Below, in pieces: positions 55,809 to 64,000 of a stretch of DNA of 64,000 nucleotides. Both the position numbers and the translations under genes were made by a program. Where the stretch lies: the NCBI GenBank assembly GCA_913064945.1, contig CAJYAN010000015.1, forward strand, positions 1 through 64,000, given 5' to 3'. Every line of letters begins with the position of its first letter. Position 1 is the stretch's first letter. Origin of the DNA: an uncultured Gammaproteobacteria bacterium. GTDB lineage: Bacteria > Pseudomonadota > Gammaproteobacteria > UBA6429 > Thiohalophilaceae. The notes beneath the pieces were generated by a model that ran no database searches, was not told the DNA's origin, and was given only the letters and a program-made list of their open reading frames with translations.

Positions 55809-58800
55809 CTACCTAGGCATAAAAACAACGCCTTCCAACTGCTCAAGTGGTTTTGGTCGGTCTATGTAATATCCTTGCACATAATCTATACCGATTTCCT
55901 GCAAACAAGAAAGAATTGATTCTGTTTCGACAAACTCCGCAACGGTTTTCAATCCCATGACGTGTCCGATTGTATGAATCGATTGTACCATGGCGTAGTC
56001 CATTGAATTTTTATCGATATCCTTTATGAAAGTCCCATCGATCTTCAAATAATCAACCGGCAGATTCTTCAGATAGGCAAAAGAAGACAGACCACTACCA
56101 AAATCATCTAATGCAAACTTACAGCCTATTTTTTTTAGATCTTCAATAAAATGTGTTGCAGACTGTATATTTGCAATTGCTGTGGTTTCTGTTATCTCAA
56201 AACACACTAAGCCCGGACGCAACTTATGTCGTATAAACTGAGCCTTTATATCTGCCAGAAATTTAGCATCGCCAACTGACGCTCCTGACAAATTGATGGA
56301 GCAGGATAAAATCTCGGAATTACCCTTGCGATGTTGGTCACCAAGCCATGCGAGCGCATTATGCACAACCCATTTATCGATATCCTTCATTAAATCATAG
56401 CGCTCGGCGGCGGGAATAAATGCGCCCGGTGGTATGATGCCTCCTTCCTCATCCAGCATTCGAATGAAGAGTTCGTAGTGGCCACTTTTTTGCTGTACAT
56501 TTGACGCAGGCGATATAGACTGAAAATACAACCTGAGTCTGTCTTGATCCAGCGCCTCCTGAATACGTGTCACCCATTGCATCTGTCCCTGGCGATTAGC
56601 AAGTTCCTTATCATTCGTTTCATAAATGTGCACCCTGTTACGCCCCAAATCCTTTGCCGCATAACAGGCCGCATCTGCCAGACTGAGTAACTGGGTTAAA
56701 TTCTCCGTATCGGGTTCAATGCGAATCAGACCTATACTCACACCAATAGAGAACTGCTTGCCATCCCAGGGAAAGCGAAACTCACGAATTGATTCACGAA
56801 TATTTTCTGCAACCTCACGCCCATGATCCACATTACAGCCATAGAGAAGAATCCCAAATTCATCTCCCCCCAACCGCGCAACGGTATCGCCTGTACGCAG
56901 ATGTGCTTTTATTAACGCCGCCACCTGTCGCAATAGCTCGTCACCTGCAAAGTGGCCACAGGTATCATTGACGAGCTTAAATTGATCCAAATCAAGATAA
57001 CAAAGTATGTGCTCACTGCCTTCTGTCTGTGCATCCGCGATCAATTCTATAGTCTTCGTTTCAAAGGCATTCCTGTTTTTAAGACCTGTCAGACTATCGT
57101 GTGTTGCCTGATGTGATAACTGCCTCTGCATTTCACGCGTACTCGTCACATCATGAAACACAACGACAGCACCGATGACCTCGCCTTTTCGGTTCCGAAT
57201 TGGCGATGCCGTGTGTTTCACCGCATATTCTTTGCCATTTTTACCAACCAGTGTATAGGTATTTGTATCGTATATTGAGTCATGTTTGTTCAACACATTG
57301 GACATAACAGACGAAGATCTCTTTTTCTTATTATCGTCTACCGCATTATAGACTTCTTCAAACAACCTTCCTTCCGCTTCCTTACTGCTCCAGCAGGTAA
57401 AGTATTCGGCTGCAGCGTTCATGTATTTAACAATACCTTCTGCCGTGGTCGTGATGACCCCGTCCGCAATTGACTCCAGGGTAACAAGCGCCCTCTCCTT
57501 TTGCTGAAATAATTCTTCTTCTATTTTTTTTCTATCCGTAATGTCACGAATCAAACCTGTATATTGCTGCATACCATTGTGCAGACTTTTTGTCACCGTC
57601 AACTCCATAAAGAATTGGGAGTTATCCTGGCGCCTCCCGATTACTTCACTTTTATGCATGCGAGTGAGCTTTTCGATACTCATTTCGTCTTTCTTAATCG
57701 AGTGAGACTGGCAAATAATATTCGCGCTGCTATCCAGCATTGAACAAAATGAATTACCAATGGCATCCGCCGCCAGGACACCGAAAATTTTTTCCGCGCC
57801 TGGGTTAAAACTGGTGAGAATACCGTTTTCTCTAAAGGTGATAATGCCATCCCGGATGTCTCTGACGATGGATTTTGTCTGCTGAATCGCATTTTCTAGA
57901 GAATCCATTACCCGATTATACTTCGAAGCTATCTGGCCTACTTCGGTGAAAGGTTCAACCGGCACACGCAAGGACAAATCAGCAGAGTCCTCCTGTTTTT
58001 TCATTGCCGTCATTAAATCATTGAGTTCTGTTACTGCCCCATGCTCCGATACATTGAGACCTTTCTCTTCGTCTTCTACTGAGACACGGATAGGGAACAT
58101 TCGATTCAGCAAGCTCAGTAATACATACGCCACAACAAAGGCCCACACACCGATCACAACGATGCCTAGCACTTGTACTTCAAGTTGTGAGATAAAATCC
58201 AGTTTTGTACCCAGCTTTACCGGGTCGCCAAAAAGCGCGACGGCAATGGTTCCCCAAATACCGGCTCCAAGATGAACCGGGATAGCACCGATGGCATCAT
58301 CGATCTGATAACGCATTAACAGGCGATCAACAAAAATAGTTACCAGGGCACCGATTGCCCCAATAATAACGGCATCTCCCGGAGTCACCGCATGACAATT
58401 TGCCGTGATGGCCACCAGTCCGGCCAGGATACCATTCATAAATACCAGTGTGCTGTCGATACATTTTCCTGGATAAATTTTACAAAACAAAAGCGATGTC
58501 ACCGCACCTGAACTTGCCGCAAGTATGGTATTGGCAACAATGCCGGGTACGCTCGCATTAAGCGCAAGCGTGCTACCACCATTAAATCCCACCCAGCCAA
58601 CGATAAAAAAAAGTACACCCAACAGCGCGAGCGGGGCATTACTTCCGGGGATTGGTTGCAATACACCGCTTACAAAACGTCCTGTTCTGGGGCCAACGAT
58701 TAATACTGCTGCAAGCGCCACCCAGCCACCGACACTATGGACAACGGTAGACCCTGCAAAATCAACAAAACCTAACTCCGCCAACCAGCCTCGTGTGCCG

Positions 58801-59234
58801 CCGAGTACGCCACCCCATGCCCAATGGCCGGAGACCGGATAGATGAATACAACGACCATGACGGTAATAAAATGATACGAGCTAAACCGAACGCGTTCCG
58901 CGATCGCCCCCGACACAATCGTCGCTGCCGTGGCACAAAACATGGTCTGAAATAAAAAGAAGGCCGCCAGCCAGGGGGCTTCATGGCCGACATTGGTAAA
59001 AAACTGTGATCCCCCTAGCAGCCCGCCATGGGATTCACCAAACATAAGGGCAAAACCGACTACCCAGAAAAGAATGACCGAGATAACAAAATCCGTCGCA
59101 TTTTTCATGGCGACGTTAATCGCATTTTTGCTTCGCGTCGCACCTGATTCAAGGCACAGAAACCCTGCCTGCATTAACAATACGAGAACACCGCTGAGTA
59201 ATAACCATAAAACATCAAGGCTTGAATTATTCAT
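55809..59234 (-). CDS. Ammonium transporter fused to PAS-GGDEF-EAL signalling domains
   Basis: A 1141-residue fusion. Residues about 1-395 are a complete Amt channel, with the pore histidines in FAGSTVVHSVGGWVAL and AIPVHLGAGIWGT. A HAMP-like linker (about 425-455), two PAS/PAC units (about 455-700), GGDEF (about 710-870) and EAL (about 885-1135) follow. The cyclase motif is ARLGGDEFGILL near residue 788, with an RTGD I-site five residues before. In the phosphodiesterase domain EAL reads ELF, but the other catalytic motifs (DDFGSG, KID, AEFVE, QGYY) remain. It should couple extracellular ammonium to c-di-GMP. The ATG at 59234 is preferred over TTG at 59240. Confidence 0.92.
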   Translation of the reverse strand: MNNSSLDVLWLLLSGVLVLLMQAGFLCLESGATRSKNAINVAMKNATDFVISVILFWVVGFALMFGESHGGLLGGSQFFTNVGHEAPWLAAFFLFQTMFCATAATIVSGAIAERVRFSSYHFITVMVVVFIYPVSGHWAWGGVLGGTRGWLAELGFVDFAGSTVVHSVGGWVALAAVLIVGPRTGRFVSGVLQPIPGSNAPLALLGVLFFIVGWVGFNGGSTLALNASVPGIVANTILAASSGAVTSLLFCKIYPGKCIDSTLVFMNGILAGLVAITANCHAVTPGDAVIIGAIGALVTIFVDRLLMRYQIDDAIGAIPVHLGAGIWGTIAVALFGDPVKLGTKLDFISQLEVQVLGIVVIGVWAFVVAYVLLSLLNRMFPIRVSVEDEEKGLNVSEHGAVTELNDLMTAMKKQEDSADLSLRVPVEPFTEVGQIASKYNRVMDSLENAIQQTKSIVRDIRDGIITFRENGILTSFNPGAEKIFGVLAADAIGNSFCSMLDSSANIICQSHSIKKDEMSIEKLTRMHKSEVIGRRQDNSQFFMELTVTKSLHNGMQQYTGLIRDITDRKKIEEELFQQKERALVTLESIADGVITTTAEGIVKYMNAAAEYFTCWSSKEAEGRLFEEVYNAVDDNKKKRSSSVMSNVLNKHDSIYDTNTYTLVGKNGKEYAVKHTASPIRNRKGEVIGAVVVFHDVTSTREMQRQLSHQATHDSLTGLKNRNAFETKTIELIADAQTEGSEHILCYLDLDQFKLVNDTCGHFAGDELLRQVAALIKAHLRTGDTVARLGGDEFGILLYGCNVDHGREVAENIRESIREFRFPWDGKQFSIGVSIGLIRIEPDTENLTQLLSLADAACYAAKDLGRNRVHIYETNDKELANRQGQMQWVTRIQEALDQDRLRLYFQSISPASNVQQKSGHYELFIRMLDEEGGIIPPGAFIPAAERYDLMKDIDKWVVHNALAWLGDQHRKGNSEILSCSINLSGASVGDAKFLADIKAQFIRHKLRPGLVCFEITETTAIANIQSATHFIEDLKKIGCKFALDDFGSGLSSFAYLKNLPVDYLKIDGTFIKDIDKNSMDYAMVQSIHTIGHVMGLKTVAEFVETESILSCLQEIGIDYVQGYYIDRPKPLEQLEGVVFMPR

Positions 59235-59240
59235 GCACAA

Positions 59241-59830: not shown

Positions 59831-60994
59831 ATGAATATTAAAATCATTTTAGGTGCACTGCTTACGCTCTTCGTCTTGGTCACCACGACCAATGTCTCGG
59901 CCTTGCCAGCCTTCGCTCGCAAGAATAATATCAAGTGTTCCTCATGCCACACCACTTATCCAACACTCACACCTCTAGGCAGACAATTCAAGGAGGCGGG
60001 CTATCGATTTACTGGAAGTGATGTTGGTGATGCAACATTATCTGACTACCTGCAGTTTGATAAAAATTTCCCCATGTCCCTGGCTTTGGTCTCGCGCCCT
60101 TATAACAATAGCAAATTAGGTACCCGCGAAATTCGTGCCATACATGAAGGTGAACTCTATGCAGGTGGTGAAATCTATAAAAATGTTTCCGGTTTTCTAG
60201 AAATAGAGGCAGAAGGGGAAGATGGTTTTGGTCTGGTGGTCACGAGTGCCAGCATCACTTACAATCAAAGCCGAGTCCTGAATATACAAACGGGCTACGG
60301 CCCAACACTTATGGCTGATCCCTATGATACCTATGCCGATATGCGTCGTCTGACGGCCTCCCACTATGAAATCATGAACCAGACTTTTGGTGGTGCCGAT
60401 AACGCGGATAAAATGCGACACGCTCGGCAGCAAGTCTCCGTATATGGCCGCCCACTTAATAACCTATTTTACTACGCTGGTGTGGGAGGCTTGACTGAAG
60501 ACAAAGTCGGTAGTGACTCCAGCATCTATTTCGCACGACTCGCCTTCGACATTACGCAGAATATGATGGTCGGCGGGATGCTTCTAAAAGGTAGCTGTAA
60601 GTTATCTGATTGCACCAGCGCCACACAGAGCCGTGATTTTAGCCGTCTTGCCATTGATGGCCAGTTCGAGATTGGCCACTTTCGCCTGACCGGTGTCTAT
60701 ATGCAGGCTAAAGATGACTCCAATACTGGTATACAGGCAACCAATAACGGCTATTATATACAGGCAATTTATCACCTCATGGAAAATGGCCGTCCAACCC
60801 TGGTACCATTACTACGGCTTGAGACTTATGAGAAAAACAATGGCCAGGATAAATACTCACTTGCTACGGCAAATATTACCTATTATTTTACCGAGAACGT
60901 AAAAGGATTTATCGAATATCAGGATACCTATGATGCACCAACGGGCGTTGCCAGGGACAATATCACCACGTTACAGGCTGAAATCGTTTTTTAG
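59831..60994 (+). CDS. Outer-membrane monoheme cytochrome c/beta-barrel protein (Cyc2-like)
   Basis: A 387-residue secreted protein. The signal peptide ends near NVSA (residue 24). A single haem c motif CSSCH lies at residues 36-40 within LPAFARKNNIKCSSCH and is followed by PTLTPLGRQFKEAGYRFTG. That pattern resembles the N-terminus of Cyc2-type cytochrome-porin fusions of iron oxidisers. The remaining 340 residues are rich in alternating strands and end in LQAEIVF, as expected for a barrel. A Cys pair (GSCKLSDC) lies in a putative loop. GAGGGG precedes the ATG. Function in extracellular electron transfer is inferred, not shown; other families share the N-terminal motif. Confidence 0.7.
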   Translation: MNIKIILGALLTLFVLVTTTNVSALPAFARKNNIKCSSCHTTYPTLTPLGRQFKEAGYRFTGSDVGDATLSDYLQFDKNFPMSLALVSRPYNNSKLGTREIRAIHEGELYAGGEIYKNVSGFLEIEAEGEDGFGLVVTSASITYNQSRVLNIQTGYGPTLMADPYDTYADMRRLTASHYEIMNQTFGGADNADKMRHARQQVSVYGRPLNNLFYYAGVGGLTEDKVGSDSSIYFARLAFDITQNMMVGGMLLKGSCKLSDCTSATQSRDFSRLAIDGQFEIGHFRLTGVYMQAKDDSNTGIQATNNGYYIQAIYHLMENGRPTLVPLLRLETYEKNNGQDKYSLATANITYYFTENVKGFIEYQDTYDAPTGVARDNITTLQAEIVF

Positions 60995-61021
60995 TTTAAA
61001 ACAAATCGTACTTCATCCACT

Positions 61022-61049
61022 CGGGCAGTAACCACTGCCCGTTTTTTTT
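61022..61049 (+). terminator. Rho-independent terminator after the cytochrome gene
   Basis: CGGGCAGT (61022-61029), loop AACC, ACTGCCCG (61034-61041), then eight T. It is a strong terminator, 27 bases past the stop. Confidence 0.95.
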
Positions 61050-61139
61050 CGATTCCCGACACTCATCACTCTTATAACCGGCACCTGCACAGTGGCAAGC
61101 CTGTAATCTCACTGACTCACGCGGTAAGATAGCCCTACC

Positions 61140-62963
61140 ATGCCAACCCAGAACAATTTAAAAGCCATTCACCACCAATATGGATGGCGTCACATCTTCG
61201 ATATCGTGTTGCAACACAAGCACGAATTAGTTCTTGCCAATATCATCGCCCTTCTGGCGGCACTGACAATTGTCCCCATCCCCTTGCTGATGCCCCTGCT
61301 GGTGGACGAGGTCCTGCTGCATAAGCCAGGGACGCTGGTCAATATTACTCAATACCTGTTCCCACCAGGCTGGCATGGACCGGTGCTGTATATCCTCTTT
61401 ATACTGGTCTGCACCATTACCCTGCGTATCTCTTCTTTGCTCTTAACCGTATTACAGACCCGCCAATTCACTATCATTGCCAAAGACGTGGTCTATCGCA
61501 TTCGCCATGCGCTCTTAATGCGCCTGCAACGCATCTCCATGGCCGAGTATGAGACTCTCGGCAGTGGTGCCGTGGCCTCACGCTTTGTTACCGACCTGAA
61601 TGCCATTGACACCTTTATCGGCGAGTCCATTAGTAAAACGCTTATATCCATACTCAGCCTGATAGGTATTACCGTGATTCTGTTGCTCATACACTGGCAA
61701 CTGGCGCTGTTTATTCTCTTCATGAACCCACTCGTCATCTATTTTACCGTGCGGATGGGTAAGAAGGTTAAGCTGTTAAAAAAGCATGAGAACAGTGCCT
61801 TTGAACTGTTTCAGCAGTCGCTTATCGAGACCCTGGATGCCATTCAACAAGTGCGCGCCGCCAACCGTGAAGGCTATTACCTGTCGCGGGTGATTGATCG
61901 CGCGCGCGGTATCCAGACACACTCCACGGCCTTTTCCTGGAAATCCGACGCGGCGAATCGTTTATCCATGGGTATTTTTCTGGTCGGCTTCGAATCCTTT
62001 CGTGCCATCAGCATGTTGATGGTGGTGTTTTCTAATCTTAGTATTGGCCATATGATGGCGGTATTCGGCTACCTGTGGTTCATGATCACGCCGGTACAGG
62101 ACGTACTGAATATTCAGTACAGCTGGTATGCAGCCAGAGCCGCCCTGAACCGTATCAATGACCTGCTTGCCCTAAAACAGGAACCACAGTACCCCCACCT
62201 GCATAATCCCTTTACCGACAAGACCACGGTCGGCATTGAGGTCAAAGATATCTGTTTTCGTTATCGTAGTGATAATGACCATGAACTCGTATTGCGTAAC
62301 GTCAATCTGAACATTCGGCCCGGTGAAAAAATCGCCCTGGTCGGTGCCAGTGGTGGTGGCAAATCAACGCTGGTGCAGGTCCTAATTGGTTTATATCCAC
62401 CACAACAGGGCATGCTGTATTTTGATGGTGTGCCGGTTACCGAGATCGGTCTCGATATTGTGCGCGATAACGTTGCCACGGTGTTACAACACCCGGCCAT
62501 GTTTAATGACACAGTACGCAATAATCTGACTCTCGGCCAGGAAATCTCTGATACACAGCTATGGCAGGCGCTGGAAGTCGCGCAACTCAAAGATGTGGTC
62601 GAAGCAATGCCACAACAGCTGGACAGCATTATCGGCCAGCAGGGCATTCGTATTTCCGGTGGCCAACAGCAACGCCTCGCTATTGCCCGCATGATTCTCG
62701 CCGATCCCAGGGTCGTCATACTCGATGAAGCCACCTCGTCACTGGATACCGAAACCGAATTACACCTGCACGCGGCCCTGCGTACCTTTCTAAAAGATCG
62801 CACCACCATCATCGTCGCCCATCGCCTCAGTGCCGTGCGTCAGGCGGATAGAGTCTACGTCTTTGAAGATGGTCATATCATCGAGGAAGGTGTACATGAG
62901 GATCTGATTCAAAGTCAGGGACTATATCAACGCCTGTACGGCGGGTATGTTGAGAAGACTTAA
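61140..62963 (+). CDS. ABC exporter, fused membrane and ATPase domains (MsbA-like)
   Basis: A 607-residue half-transporter. Six helices lie in residues about 30-320. The ATPase domain has Walker A GASGGGKS (near residue 403), signature ISGGQQQRLAIARMI and Walker B VVILDEATSSLD, followed by the H-loop IVAHRLS. There is no peptidase domain. It could export lipids, peptides or drugs; the substrate is not indicated. It stands between a strong terminator and the cassette region, so it is probably monocistronic. Confidence 0.92.
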   Translation: MPTQNNLKAIHHQYGWRHIFDIVLQHKHELVLANIIALLAALTIVPIPLLMPLLVDEVLLHKPGTLVNITQYLFPPGWHGPVLYILFILVCTITLRISSLLLTVLQTRQFTIIAKDVVYRIRHALLMRLQRISMAEYETLGSGAVASRFVTDLNAIDTFIGESISKTLISILSLIGITVILLLIHWQLALFILFMNPLVIYFTVRMGKKVKLLKKHENSAFELFQQSLIETLDAIQQVRAANREGYYLSRVIDRARGIQTHSTAFSWKSDAANRLSMGIFLVGFESFRAISMLMVVFSNLSIGHMMAVFGYLWFMITPVQDVLNIQYSWYAARAALNRINDLLALKQEPQYPHLHNPFTDKTTVGIEVKDICFRYRSDNDHELVLRNVNLNIRPGEKIALVGASGGGKSTLVQVLIGLYPPQQGMLYFDGVPVTEIGLDIVRDNVATVLQHPAMFNDTVRNNLTLGQEISDTQLWQALEVAQLKDVVEAMPQQLDSIIGQQGIRISGGQQQRLAIARMILADPRVVILDEATSSLDTETELHLHAALRTFLKDRTTIIVAHRLSAVRQADRVYVFEDGHIIEEGVHEDLIQSQGLYQRLYGGYVEKT

Positions 62964-63075
62964 TCCATAGAGTCATCTGATTGCGGTCTTTGTCTATGCA
63001 CGATTTTGTCACTCTTGAAGATAAGTTTTTGATCTTATTTATAATTATTCCATTTATTGATTATATTGACACAGA

Positions 63076-63117
63076 AATAGGCAGATTCTGCCTATTACCG
63101 TAAAATACGGATTCCGT
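63076..63117. repeat. Three consecutive short inverted repeats before the cassette
   Basis: AATAGGCAGA-T-TCTGCCTATT (63076-63096) is a perfect 10-bp repeat. CCGTA-AAA-TACGG (63098-63110) and ACGGA-T-TCCGT (63107-63117) follow and overlap each other. They lie just left of the cassette boundary. They might be a transcript end for the ABC gene or the remnant of a recombination site. Confidence 0.6.
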
Positions 63118-63127
63118 CTAATATACT

Positions 63128-63134
63128 GTTAGCT
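63128..63134 (+). other. Left junction of a gene cassette (GTTAGCT)
   Basis: GTTAGCT fits the integron core site GTTRRRY. It is the exact reverse complement of AGCTAAC at 63808-63814, the start of the attC of the same cassette. In an excised circular cassette these two heptamers are the two ends of one attC, so the match is expected only if this is the cassette's own 5' end. The cassette would span 63129-63870. Confidence 0.72.
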
Positions 63135-63152
63135 ATTACATGGAGGAAGTGC

Positions 63153-63809
63153 TTGATAGAATTGACATCATTTCCGGCGTTGTTCGGAGGAGCAACTATA
63201 ATAGCGACAGGCTTATCCTCTTGGTTTGGTCGTTTATTGTTAAAGAAACTCCTCAATGACGAAAAGCATAAAACAGACAAAATGCTAGAACGATTCAAGT
63301 CTAAACTAAGCAGGAATACTAGCAGAGAGTTAGAGCAGGTCAAATCTCAACTTGCACTACATACCAAACAATTAGAGAATGAACACTCCGCTATTTTTTC
63401 TAAACAAATTGAAGTCATGGACACGACATTCAAAGCACTAGTTTCAATTTCCAACCAAGCATCAAGGTCATTATGGTTCGTCGAGTGTCCAAGGGATGCG
63501 AGCGGGATAAGGGCAGAAGCAAATAAACTTCATCAAGAAATTAAAGAGTTAACCGTATATTTCAGTCAACATAGAATCTATCTCGACAGTGAGGTATGTG
63601 GTGTCGTCAGTGACGCAATATCTAAAGCAAGTGACCCTGCCGTAGCATATGTCTGCTATTTAGGAAACTATGACGACCATGAACTCCACACTATCCAGGA
63701 CGTTAGAGATAGAAGCTGGGATCAAATCTGCGAAGATTTACATCCTGCTATCGAATTAGTAGAGTCGAAATTTAGGTCGCAGTTTTTGCACCACAAATCA
63801 ACCAAATAG
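63153..63809 (+). CDS. Cassette-borne hypothetical membrane-anchored coiled-coil protein
   Basis: A 218-residue protein of no family I recognise. Residues about 8-26 are hydrophobic (ALFGGATIIATGLSSWFGRLLL), then a long charged helical region (about 30-90) suggests a coiled coil. The rest is mixed and soluble. The start is TTG at 63153 with GGAGG 6 bases upstream. Its stop lies inside the R'' core of the attC that follows, a normal close fit in cassettes. Base composition is more AT-rich than the housekeeping genes. No function is proposed. Confidence 0.75.
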   Translation: MIELTSFPALFGGATIIATGLSSWFGRLLLKKLLNDEKHKTDKMLERFKSKLSRNTSRELEQVKSQLALHTKQLENEHSAIFSKQIEVMDTTFKALVSISNQASRSLWFVECPRDASGIRAEANKLHQEIKELTVYFSQHRIYLDSEVCGVVSDAISKASDPAVAYVCYLGNYDDHELHTIQDVRDRSWDQICEDLHPAIELVESKFRSQFLHHKSTK

Positions 63810-63876
63810 CTAACAAAGCGTTTCACTCGGAAAACTAGGCCTGCGGCCTATTTTCCGGTGAACTTAATCGTTAGAA
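63808..63876 (+). other. Integron attC recombination site
   Basis: 69 bases. The outer cores are AGCTAAC (63808-63814) and GTTAGAA (63870-63876), matching RYYYAAC and GTTRRRY. Between them the two arms pair almost perfectly: 63820-63841 against 63845-63863, with apex TGC. The left arm has three unpaired bases (63821, 63827, 63835), the extra-helical bases that orient attC folding. The layout copies the classic AACAA...GTTCA / TGAAC...CGTTAG order of 59-base elements. Confidence 0.82.
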
Positions 63877-63886
63877 AACACTGAAC

Positions 63887-64000
63887 ATGGAACAATACGA
63901 GCTACTTCAGGAACTCGAGCTAGAGTTAGTACAGCCGACAACACGACGGAACGTTACTCGCCTTTCTGAGTTGATTGATGATGGATTTGAAGAGTTCGGC
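63887..64000 (+). CDS. DUF4440-like protein, N-terminal fragment (second cassette, cut by right edge)
   Basis: Only 38 codons are in the window: MEQYELLQELELELVQPTTR and on to LIDDGFEEFG. The pattern LLxLExxLxxPxxRRxxxxLxxLIxxxFxEFG is that of the DUF4440 (NTF2-like) family, small proteins often met in integron cassettes. It starts 10 bases after the attC, as expected for the next cassette. The ribosome site is weak. The remaining protein and its attC are outside the window. Confidence 0.6.
   Translation, partial: MEQYELLQELELELVQPTTRRNVTRLSELIDDGFEEFG

Follow-up and report, generated by a model that had tools for sequence, protein, structure and literature searches.

Organization of the locus

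The window, by which we mean the whole stretch of 64,000 nucleotides analysed here, lies on contig C15 of an uncultured gammaproteobacterium (Thiohalophilaceae), and this contig extends 12 kb past the right end of the window. The features relevant to this study are the following:

61140–62963, plus strand: ABC transporter gene, MsbA-like (NCBIfam TIGR02203, 345 bits, below the cut-off of 602), forming the left chromosomal flank of the platform
63075–63131, plus strand: orphan attI site with a predicted crossover between G63128 and T63129 (model R1, 70.3 bits, E 5.2e-15)
63078–63094, no strand: attI palindrome 1, TAGGCAGA-T-TCTGCCTA, perfect (read from the sequence)
63107–63117, no strand: attI palindrome 2, ACGGA-T-TCCGT, perfect (read from the sequence)
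63129–63870, plus strand: gene cassette 1, 742 bp, whose 5' end TTAGCT complements the R'' core AGCTAAC
63153–63809, plus strand: cassette 1 ORF, 218 aa, with a TTG start after GGAGG (from the ORF list)
63808–63876, plus strand: attC site of cassette 1, the feature singled out in the preliminary description (fold and R2 match)
63871–64000, plus strand: start of cassette 2, which continues beyond the window, with an ORF from 63887 (116 aa, DUF4440, Pfam E 8.3e-12)

Further upstream, the ORF at 55809–59240 on the minus strand (1143 aa, very long) appears by eye to join an ammonium transporter to signalling (GGDEF/EAL-like) domains.

The attC site and the cassette array

Direct reading of the sequence located the cores AGCTAAC (63808) and GTTAGAA (63870) exactly where the preliminary description had placed them. 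With regard to the stem, its 18 pairs (6+7+5) and 3-base apex were recovered, but the three unpaired bases that it had counted were not, since only two bases are bulged, both of them in the same arm. The two checks which it had suggested, folding of the bottom strand and an attC covariance model, both supported the assignment. Single-stranded DNA folding of the bottom strand gave −17.5 kcal/mol (z −5.40), a value equalled by none of 200 shuffled sequences. A covariance model termed R2, which was trained on 12 attC sites taken from the arrays of relatives and from which the window site was kept out (17 pairs in the alignment, 9 of them with compensatory change), matched 63808–63876 exactly with 39.1 bits (E 3.9e-7), and this was its sole match within the 64-kb window up to E 10. 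Other searches were less informative: Rfam returned nothing in window positions 60000–64000 up to E 10 and no match at the gathering threshold in loci L085, L095, L002 and L019, a pattern search for the R' core performed no better than chance, and a first hairpin finder proved too strict, given that among four loci only the window site was convincing, while the array on contig C8 was missed and chance matches were returned. Taken together, the segment 63808–63876 displays R'' and R' cores, L'' and L' arms, one-sided bulged bases and a bottom-strand hairpin; it is a genuine attC site, which IntI is predicted to recombine in the form of its folded bottom strand.

The view that the window ends inside a cassette array also held. 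Cassette 1 (63129–63870) is followed by cassette 2 from 63871 on, and the further attC that was expected to the right was found about 2 kb away, at contig positions 65851–65928 (R2, 31.9 bits), with an R' core that by eye is altered to GCTATA. The TTAGCT that follows G63128 and the R'' core AGCTAAC at 63808 are complementary, a relation that the opposite ends of a single cassette should show. The 218-aa protein of cassette 1 had no match in NCBIfam at 1e-3, none in PADLOC at 0.01 and none in Pfam above cut-off, and among 40 family genomes it was present in its own genome and absent from the other 39. In cassette 2, an R'' core (TTCTAAC) was found at contig position 64232, but the remainder of that attC is missing, and therefore the window array is partly decayed. 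Transposase-like gene fragments, recognized by eye, occupy contig positions 64258–64812 (L002 7866–8420), where this attC breaks off. With attC sites at 63808 and at contig position 65851 and without a neighbouring intI, the locus classifies as a CALIN.

An attI site without an adjacent integrase gene

What had escaped the preliminary description was the attI site at the start of the array, beside which there is no integrase gene. This site was recognized with an attI model termed R1, which was derived from 15 intI-adjacent sites and did not include the window attI; even so, the window attI scored higher (70.3 bits) than the attI of contig C21 (63.3 bits), although the latter was part of the training set. 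Compared with this C21 attI, which lies beside an intact intI, the window attI showed 91% identity over 64 bp. Located behind the ABC transporter gene, it carries its two palindromes 26 bp apart, followed by the core TCTAATATACTG|TTA, and both palindromes are perfect, whereas the C21 counterparts, compared by hand, contain two mismatched pairs in palindrome 1 and one in palindrome 2. It is thus homologous to an intI-adjacent site and is followed by a cassette at G|TT. Neither a TIGR02249 match on contig C15 (E≤0.001) nor an intI remnant within 3.5 kb of the window attI was detected, and the locus is consequently not a complete integron, in which intI adjoins attI. A promoter consensus scan of positions 62900–63300 yielded 4 promoter-like sites versus 1.5 expected, a difference that is not informative.

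Integrases and further attI sites of the same genome

In this genome, TIGR02249 was matched above cut-off on contigs C21 and C8; C16 and C18 hold matches with lower scores, and C1 holds a fragment. The C21 protein belongs to the IntI family by the curated cut-off (447 bits versus 265); its gene (L011 12671–14080) encodes a product of 470 aa, which includes an additional domain at the N-terminus. Most integrases beside the 15 intI-adjacent attI sites used for R1 are similar in length (about 470 aa, of which some 150 form an N-terminal extension), and extended IntI proteins of about 470 aa also occur in named records such as Allochromatium palmeri, Ectothiorhodospira marina and Desulfobacterales MAGs. 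Concerning the nature of the extension, comparison with Pfam SAM_4 remained below cut-off (E 0.011), Foldseek gave no match at E≤0.001, and the hhalign probability was 3%. When the extension of a relative (L155, 108 residues) was modelled alone (pLDDT 92), its best structural matches were tyrosine recombinase core-binding domains, with 2a3v, the Vibrio integron integrase, at the top (Z 9.8, rmsd 3.8, 101 residues aligned). By its predicted fold, the N-terminal extension of C21-type IntI may be a second core-binding domain. R1 matches at E≤0.001 were obtained in 8 of 15 named genomes with extended IntI, with one or two in each (the 15 include G154 and G155, which are probably the same genomes as G033 and G035, as the places of their matches are equal), and therefore this type of attI is not universal for extended IntI.

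No R1 match was found up to E 10 in the 20-kb stretch around the C8 intI. On contig C19, an attI-like site (R1, 28.7 bits) precedes a cassette with a 117-bp attC, and attI-like sites on C5 (38.2 bits) and C13 (34.3 bits) are followed by ORFs, behind which no attC was detected. As to cassette content, the protein encoded behind the intI-less attI of C19 (1800–2522, L019) is trypsin-like below the Pfam cut-off and matched LmuA in PADLOC (E 4.7e-13), and the cassettes beside the C21 attI (L011 14258–16363) place a restriction-modification pair in an integron, made up of an EcoO109I-like restriction enzyme and a C5 cytosine methyltransferase. At the start of C1 (L013 1–2730), a truncated intI and an attC (552–619) are separated by a gene for an IS110/IS1111-type transposase, identified by eye.

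Architecture of attI across relatives

All 15 intI-adjacent attI sites share two palindromes followed by a TCTA...ACTG|TTA core. The letters of the palindromes vary among attI sites, and their symmetry is kept: 86% of the palindrome cells pair, whereas shuffles give 74% and sliding gives at most 45%. Covariation was also apparent, with 26 double-change cells versus 11, and three measures beat all 500 shuffles; two other measures were unremarkable, the number of pairs with double change being reached by 45 and the number of pair types by 208 of 500 shuffles. Upstream of the sites, a GCTAGGATTA-like motif was present in 6 of 15 intI-adjacent and 5 of 70 orphan sites (background 14/2100), and is therefore missing from most of the orphan sites. 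At 15 of 71 orphan sites there is a TTGA box 40–44 bp upstream, which may represent a candidate promoter, while none of the 15 intI-adjacent sites had one in that bin.

Orphan attI sites in the family

An R1 match at E≤1 was present in 35 of 40 family genomes, including the one studied here. Among the matches listed with at least 37 bits, counted by hand after one opposite-strand shadow had been dropped, there were 90 attI sites, 20 of them beside an intI above cut-off and 70, from 22 genomes, not beside an intact intI (hereafter orphan sites). Genome G016 alone contributed 11 of the 70, and G037, which is assembled in three contigs, harbors 7 orphan sites together with one site beside its only intI above cut-off. 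The same layout was observed in the more contiguous genomes (G037, G028, G038 and G000, with 3 to 22 contigs), most genomes being drafts. In a class-wide draw, made with stricter filters than the family search, 8 of 113 other genomes had an R1 match at E≤1e-4, and all eight carry other family labels.

A search with an intI profile (E≤0.01) detected no intI remnant within ±3.5 kb of 67 of the 70 orphan sites, some of whose contigs end within about 1.3 kb upstream and one (L137) after only 39 bp of upstream sequence. Remnants were found beside L124 and L127 and, weakly, beside L152, all of them in genome G022, and some of the orphan sites are therefore the remains of once complete integrons. Genomes G038, G012, G009 and G022 contain orphan sites and no intI above cut-off; their platforms may be dormant, or an existing intI may have escaped assembly. 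In the genus of G037 and G038, many of the attI sites terminate a repeat of about 480 bp, dispersed between genes and lacking intI (e.g., L085 1943–2423), which is perhaps the vehicle that spreads attI in this genus, while elsewhere the sequence upstream of attI differs. The origins of the orphan sites look mixed, with spread of attI perhaps occurring in addition to the intI loss seen in G022.

Orphan attI sites as heads of cassette arrays

In order to learn whether orphan sites head cassette arrays, the bases following attI were compared with the R'' cores of the same loci. Exact complementarity was found for 15 of 64 orphan sites versus 15 of 1098 control GTTA positions (Fisher p 2e-12); the test detects 2 of 10 intI-adjacent sites, and its sensitivity is therefore low. 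A looser version gave 24/67 versus 47/763.

Furthermore, R2 was run over 68 orphan loci, the sequence scanned around the 70 sites amounting to about 172 kb upstream and 274 kb downstream; in L087 and L089, which have two attI sites, the first-listed one set what counted as upstream and downstream. This search returned 92 matches at E≤0.05. Since 10 of the 12 R2 training sites lie in the tested loci, these were excluded as a guard against circularity, leaving 82 matches. All of these were on the attI strand, 80 of them downstream and 2 upstream of attI, and the opposite strand had none. A downstream attC was present in 37 of the 68 loci, the first one 254–1282 bp from attI, and none was found in the other 31, in some of them because the contig ends. 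When four orphans that are not clean (L137, L124, L127 and L152) were left out, the proportion with a downstream attC was 34 of 64.

Three pairs of orthologous orphan loci, sharing flanks between different genomes, provided a further comparison, and all three diverge right after attI. The loci L085/L096 (G037/G038) agree in attI and in the second cassette but not in the first, the junctions lying at G|TT; the first attC of L096 is degenerate and had no R2 match. The loci L099/L100 (G011/G007) align with 91% identity over 2.4 kb of upstream sequence, up to a break at G|TTA, and a downstream attC is present in both. The pair L091/L095, in which both flanks are common and the content differs, is weaker, as the L091 attI reached 35.9 bits, and no attC was found in this pair, of which L095 was covered by the R2 run. 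In the sister-species pairs L085/L096 and L099/L100, the orphan attI is shared while different first cassettes are carried.

Interpretation and alternative explanations

Integrons are usually viewed as one integrase, one attI and one array, and arrays without an integrase are usually taken as products of decay. The reading that we prefer for the window, with a probability of roughly 0.7, is that its attC ends the first cassette of a small array at a stand-alone attI, which is most likely served in trans by the C21 integrase, and that this layout is common in the family. The 470-aa C21 integrase, whose own attI is nearly the same, would act in trans on the window attI, where the folded bottom strand of a cassette attC would be recombined with the double-stranded attI; one integrase would thereby supply several dispersed cassette-docking platforms per genome. 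Because the two attI sites are nearly identical, we infer action of the C21 integrase at the window attI, and the site is probably still active in this strain. The chemistry of recombination is presumably the same as in known integrons. For the family as a whole, it seems rather probable that the integron is distributed, in that an IntI with a duplicated core-binding domain serves many attI platforms, which are inherited and spread independently of intI and whose cassettes differ between sister species; the palindromic repeats and the extra domain may then be a recognition pair for efficient docking in trans. Against the preferred reading stand the 31 of 68 loci in which no downstream attC was found, the intI remnants of G022, the orphan-bearing genomes without intI above cut-off, the partly decayed state of the window array, the C5 and C13 sites without a detected attC and the strict complementarity test, which misses most sites, intI-adjacent ones included.

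One alternative is a relic, in which a former intI-attI-array lost its intI and left behind an attI and a decaying array, i.e., a degraded CALIN with no present function. CALINs are seen as degraded integrons by the authors of IntegronFinder (PMC9024848), and the remnants beside L124, L127 and, weakly, L152, the intI fragment on C1 and the truncated attC of the window array fit this explanation. We nevertheless consider it unlikely for the window, given that 67 of 70 sites lack a remnant within the limits set by the contig ends, that orphan sites outnumber intI genes, that the window attI has more regular palindromes than the C21 attI, that first cassettes are unlike between sister species and that the attI sites of the G037/G038 genus end a dispersed repeat without intI. 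A mere chance resemblance to attI was rejected on the basis of the 91% identity over 64 bp, the R1 score of 70.3 bits and the rarity of R1 matches outside the family. Insertion of a cassette at a non-classical genomic site of the attG type, although such insertions outside integrons have been described (PMC12444791, PMC12901181), appears very improbable: the insertion point is itself an attI by R1, it bears the two palindromes, and outside the family 8 of 113 genomes from the same class have an R1 match (E≤1e-4), compared with 35 of 40 within it (at the looser E≤1).

We attach similarly little credence to an assembly error by which an attI belonging to C21 or some other array would have been joined to the wrong flank. 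Contigs do appear to break inside arrays, as the end of C21 and the start of C1 share about 127 bp that by eye are attC-like (without an R2 match), and attC matches lie near the starts of C1, C4, C10 and C12. However, the window attI differs in sequence from that of C21, has other flanks on both sides and lies 13 kb inside its contig, and the same layout is found inside a 2.49-Mb contig of G037.

If attI platforms are indeed dispersed and served in trans, captured genes could be placed at many chromosomal loci. One class of CALINs would then consist of functional docking sites, and integron content would be underestimated by tools that ignore attI. Orthologous orphan sites in sister species constitute a natural and directly testable record of cassette exchange, and the co-occurrence of a palindromic attI with an extra integrase domain makes the question of what determines attI specificity testable.

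Comparison with known systems

The literature, in which subscription papers were thinly covered, yielded CALINs, attG sites and delta-attI cassettes, and in it we found no system that combines several attI sites with one integrase. IntegronFinder 2 is described as detecting attI for class 1 alone and as requiring two attC sites for a CALIN by default (PMC9024848), and therefore attI-headed platforms are easily missed. Like the window array, CALINs consist of attC-bounded cassettes without an adjacent intI, which a functional IntI can mobilise in trans (PMC12444791), but arrays of the window type are headed by a recognizable attI, and there are many of them per genome; in the sections describing Xanthomonas CALINs, which comprise seven loci, attI is not mentioned. 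With sedentary chromosomal integrons, our system shares attI, attC, cassettes and, in the same genome, an extended IntI of the TIGR02249 family; it differs in that the window platform lacks intI and a promoter-linked intI region, and in that one integrase is accompanied by several attI sites. Sites of the attG type likewise hold cassettes outside the main integron, but where PMC12444791 defines them, they are neither attC nor attI, whereas the window site is an attI by both model and identity.

At the level of the attI itself, class 1 attI1 also has accessory repeats upstream of the core, which are described as direct repeats (PMC8191803), while in the family studied here both repeats are palindromic, their letters varying between species. 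With respect to the integrase, the IntI of clade 15 belong to a group described in an older survey as about 120 aa longer through a fusion (PMC2426708), so that both they and the C21-type IntI are lengthened; section 7 of that paper holds no attI data. The parts of the system are classical, and what is new is the layout, namely several attI platforms far from one integrase.
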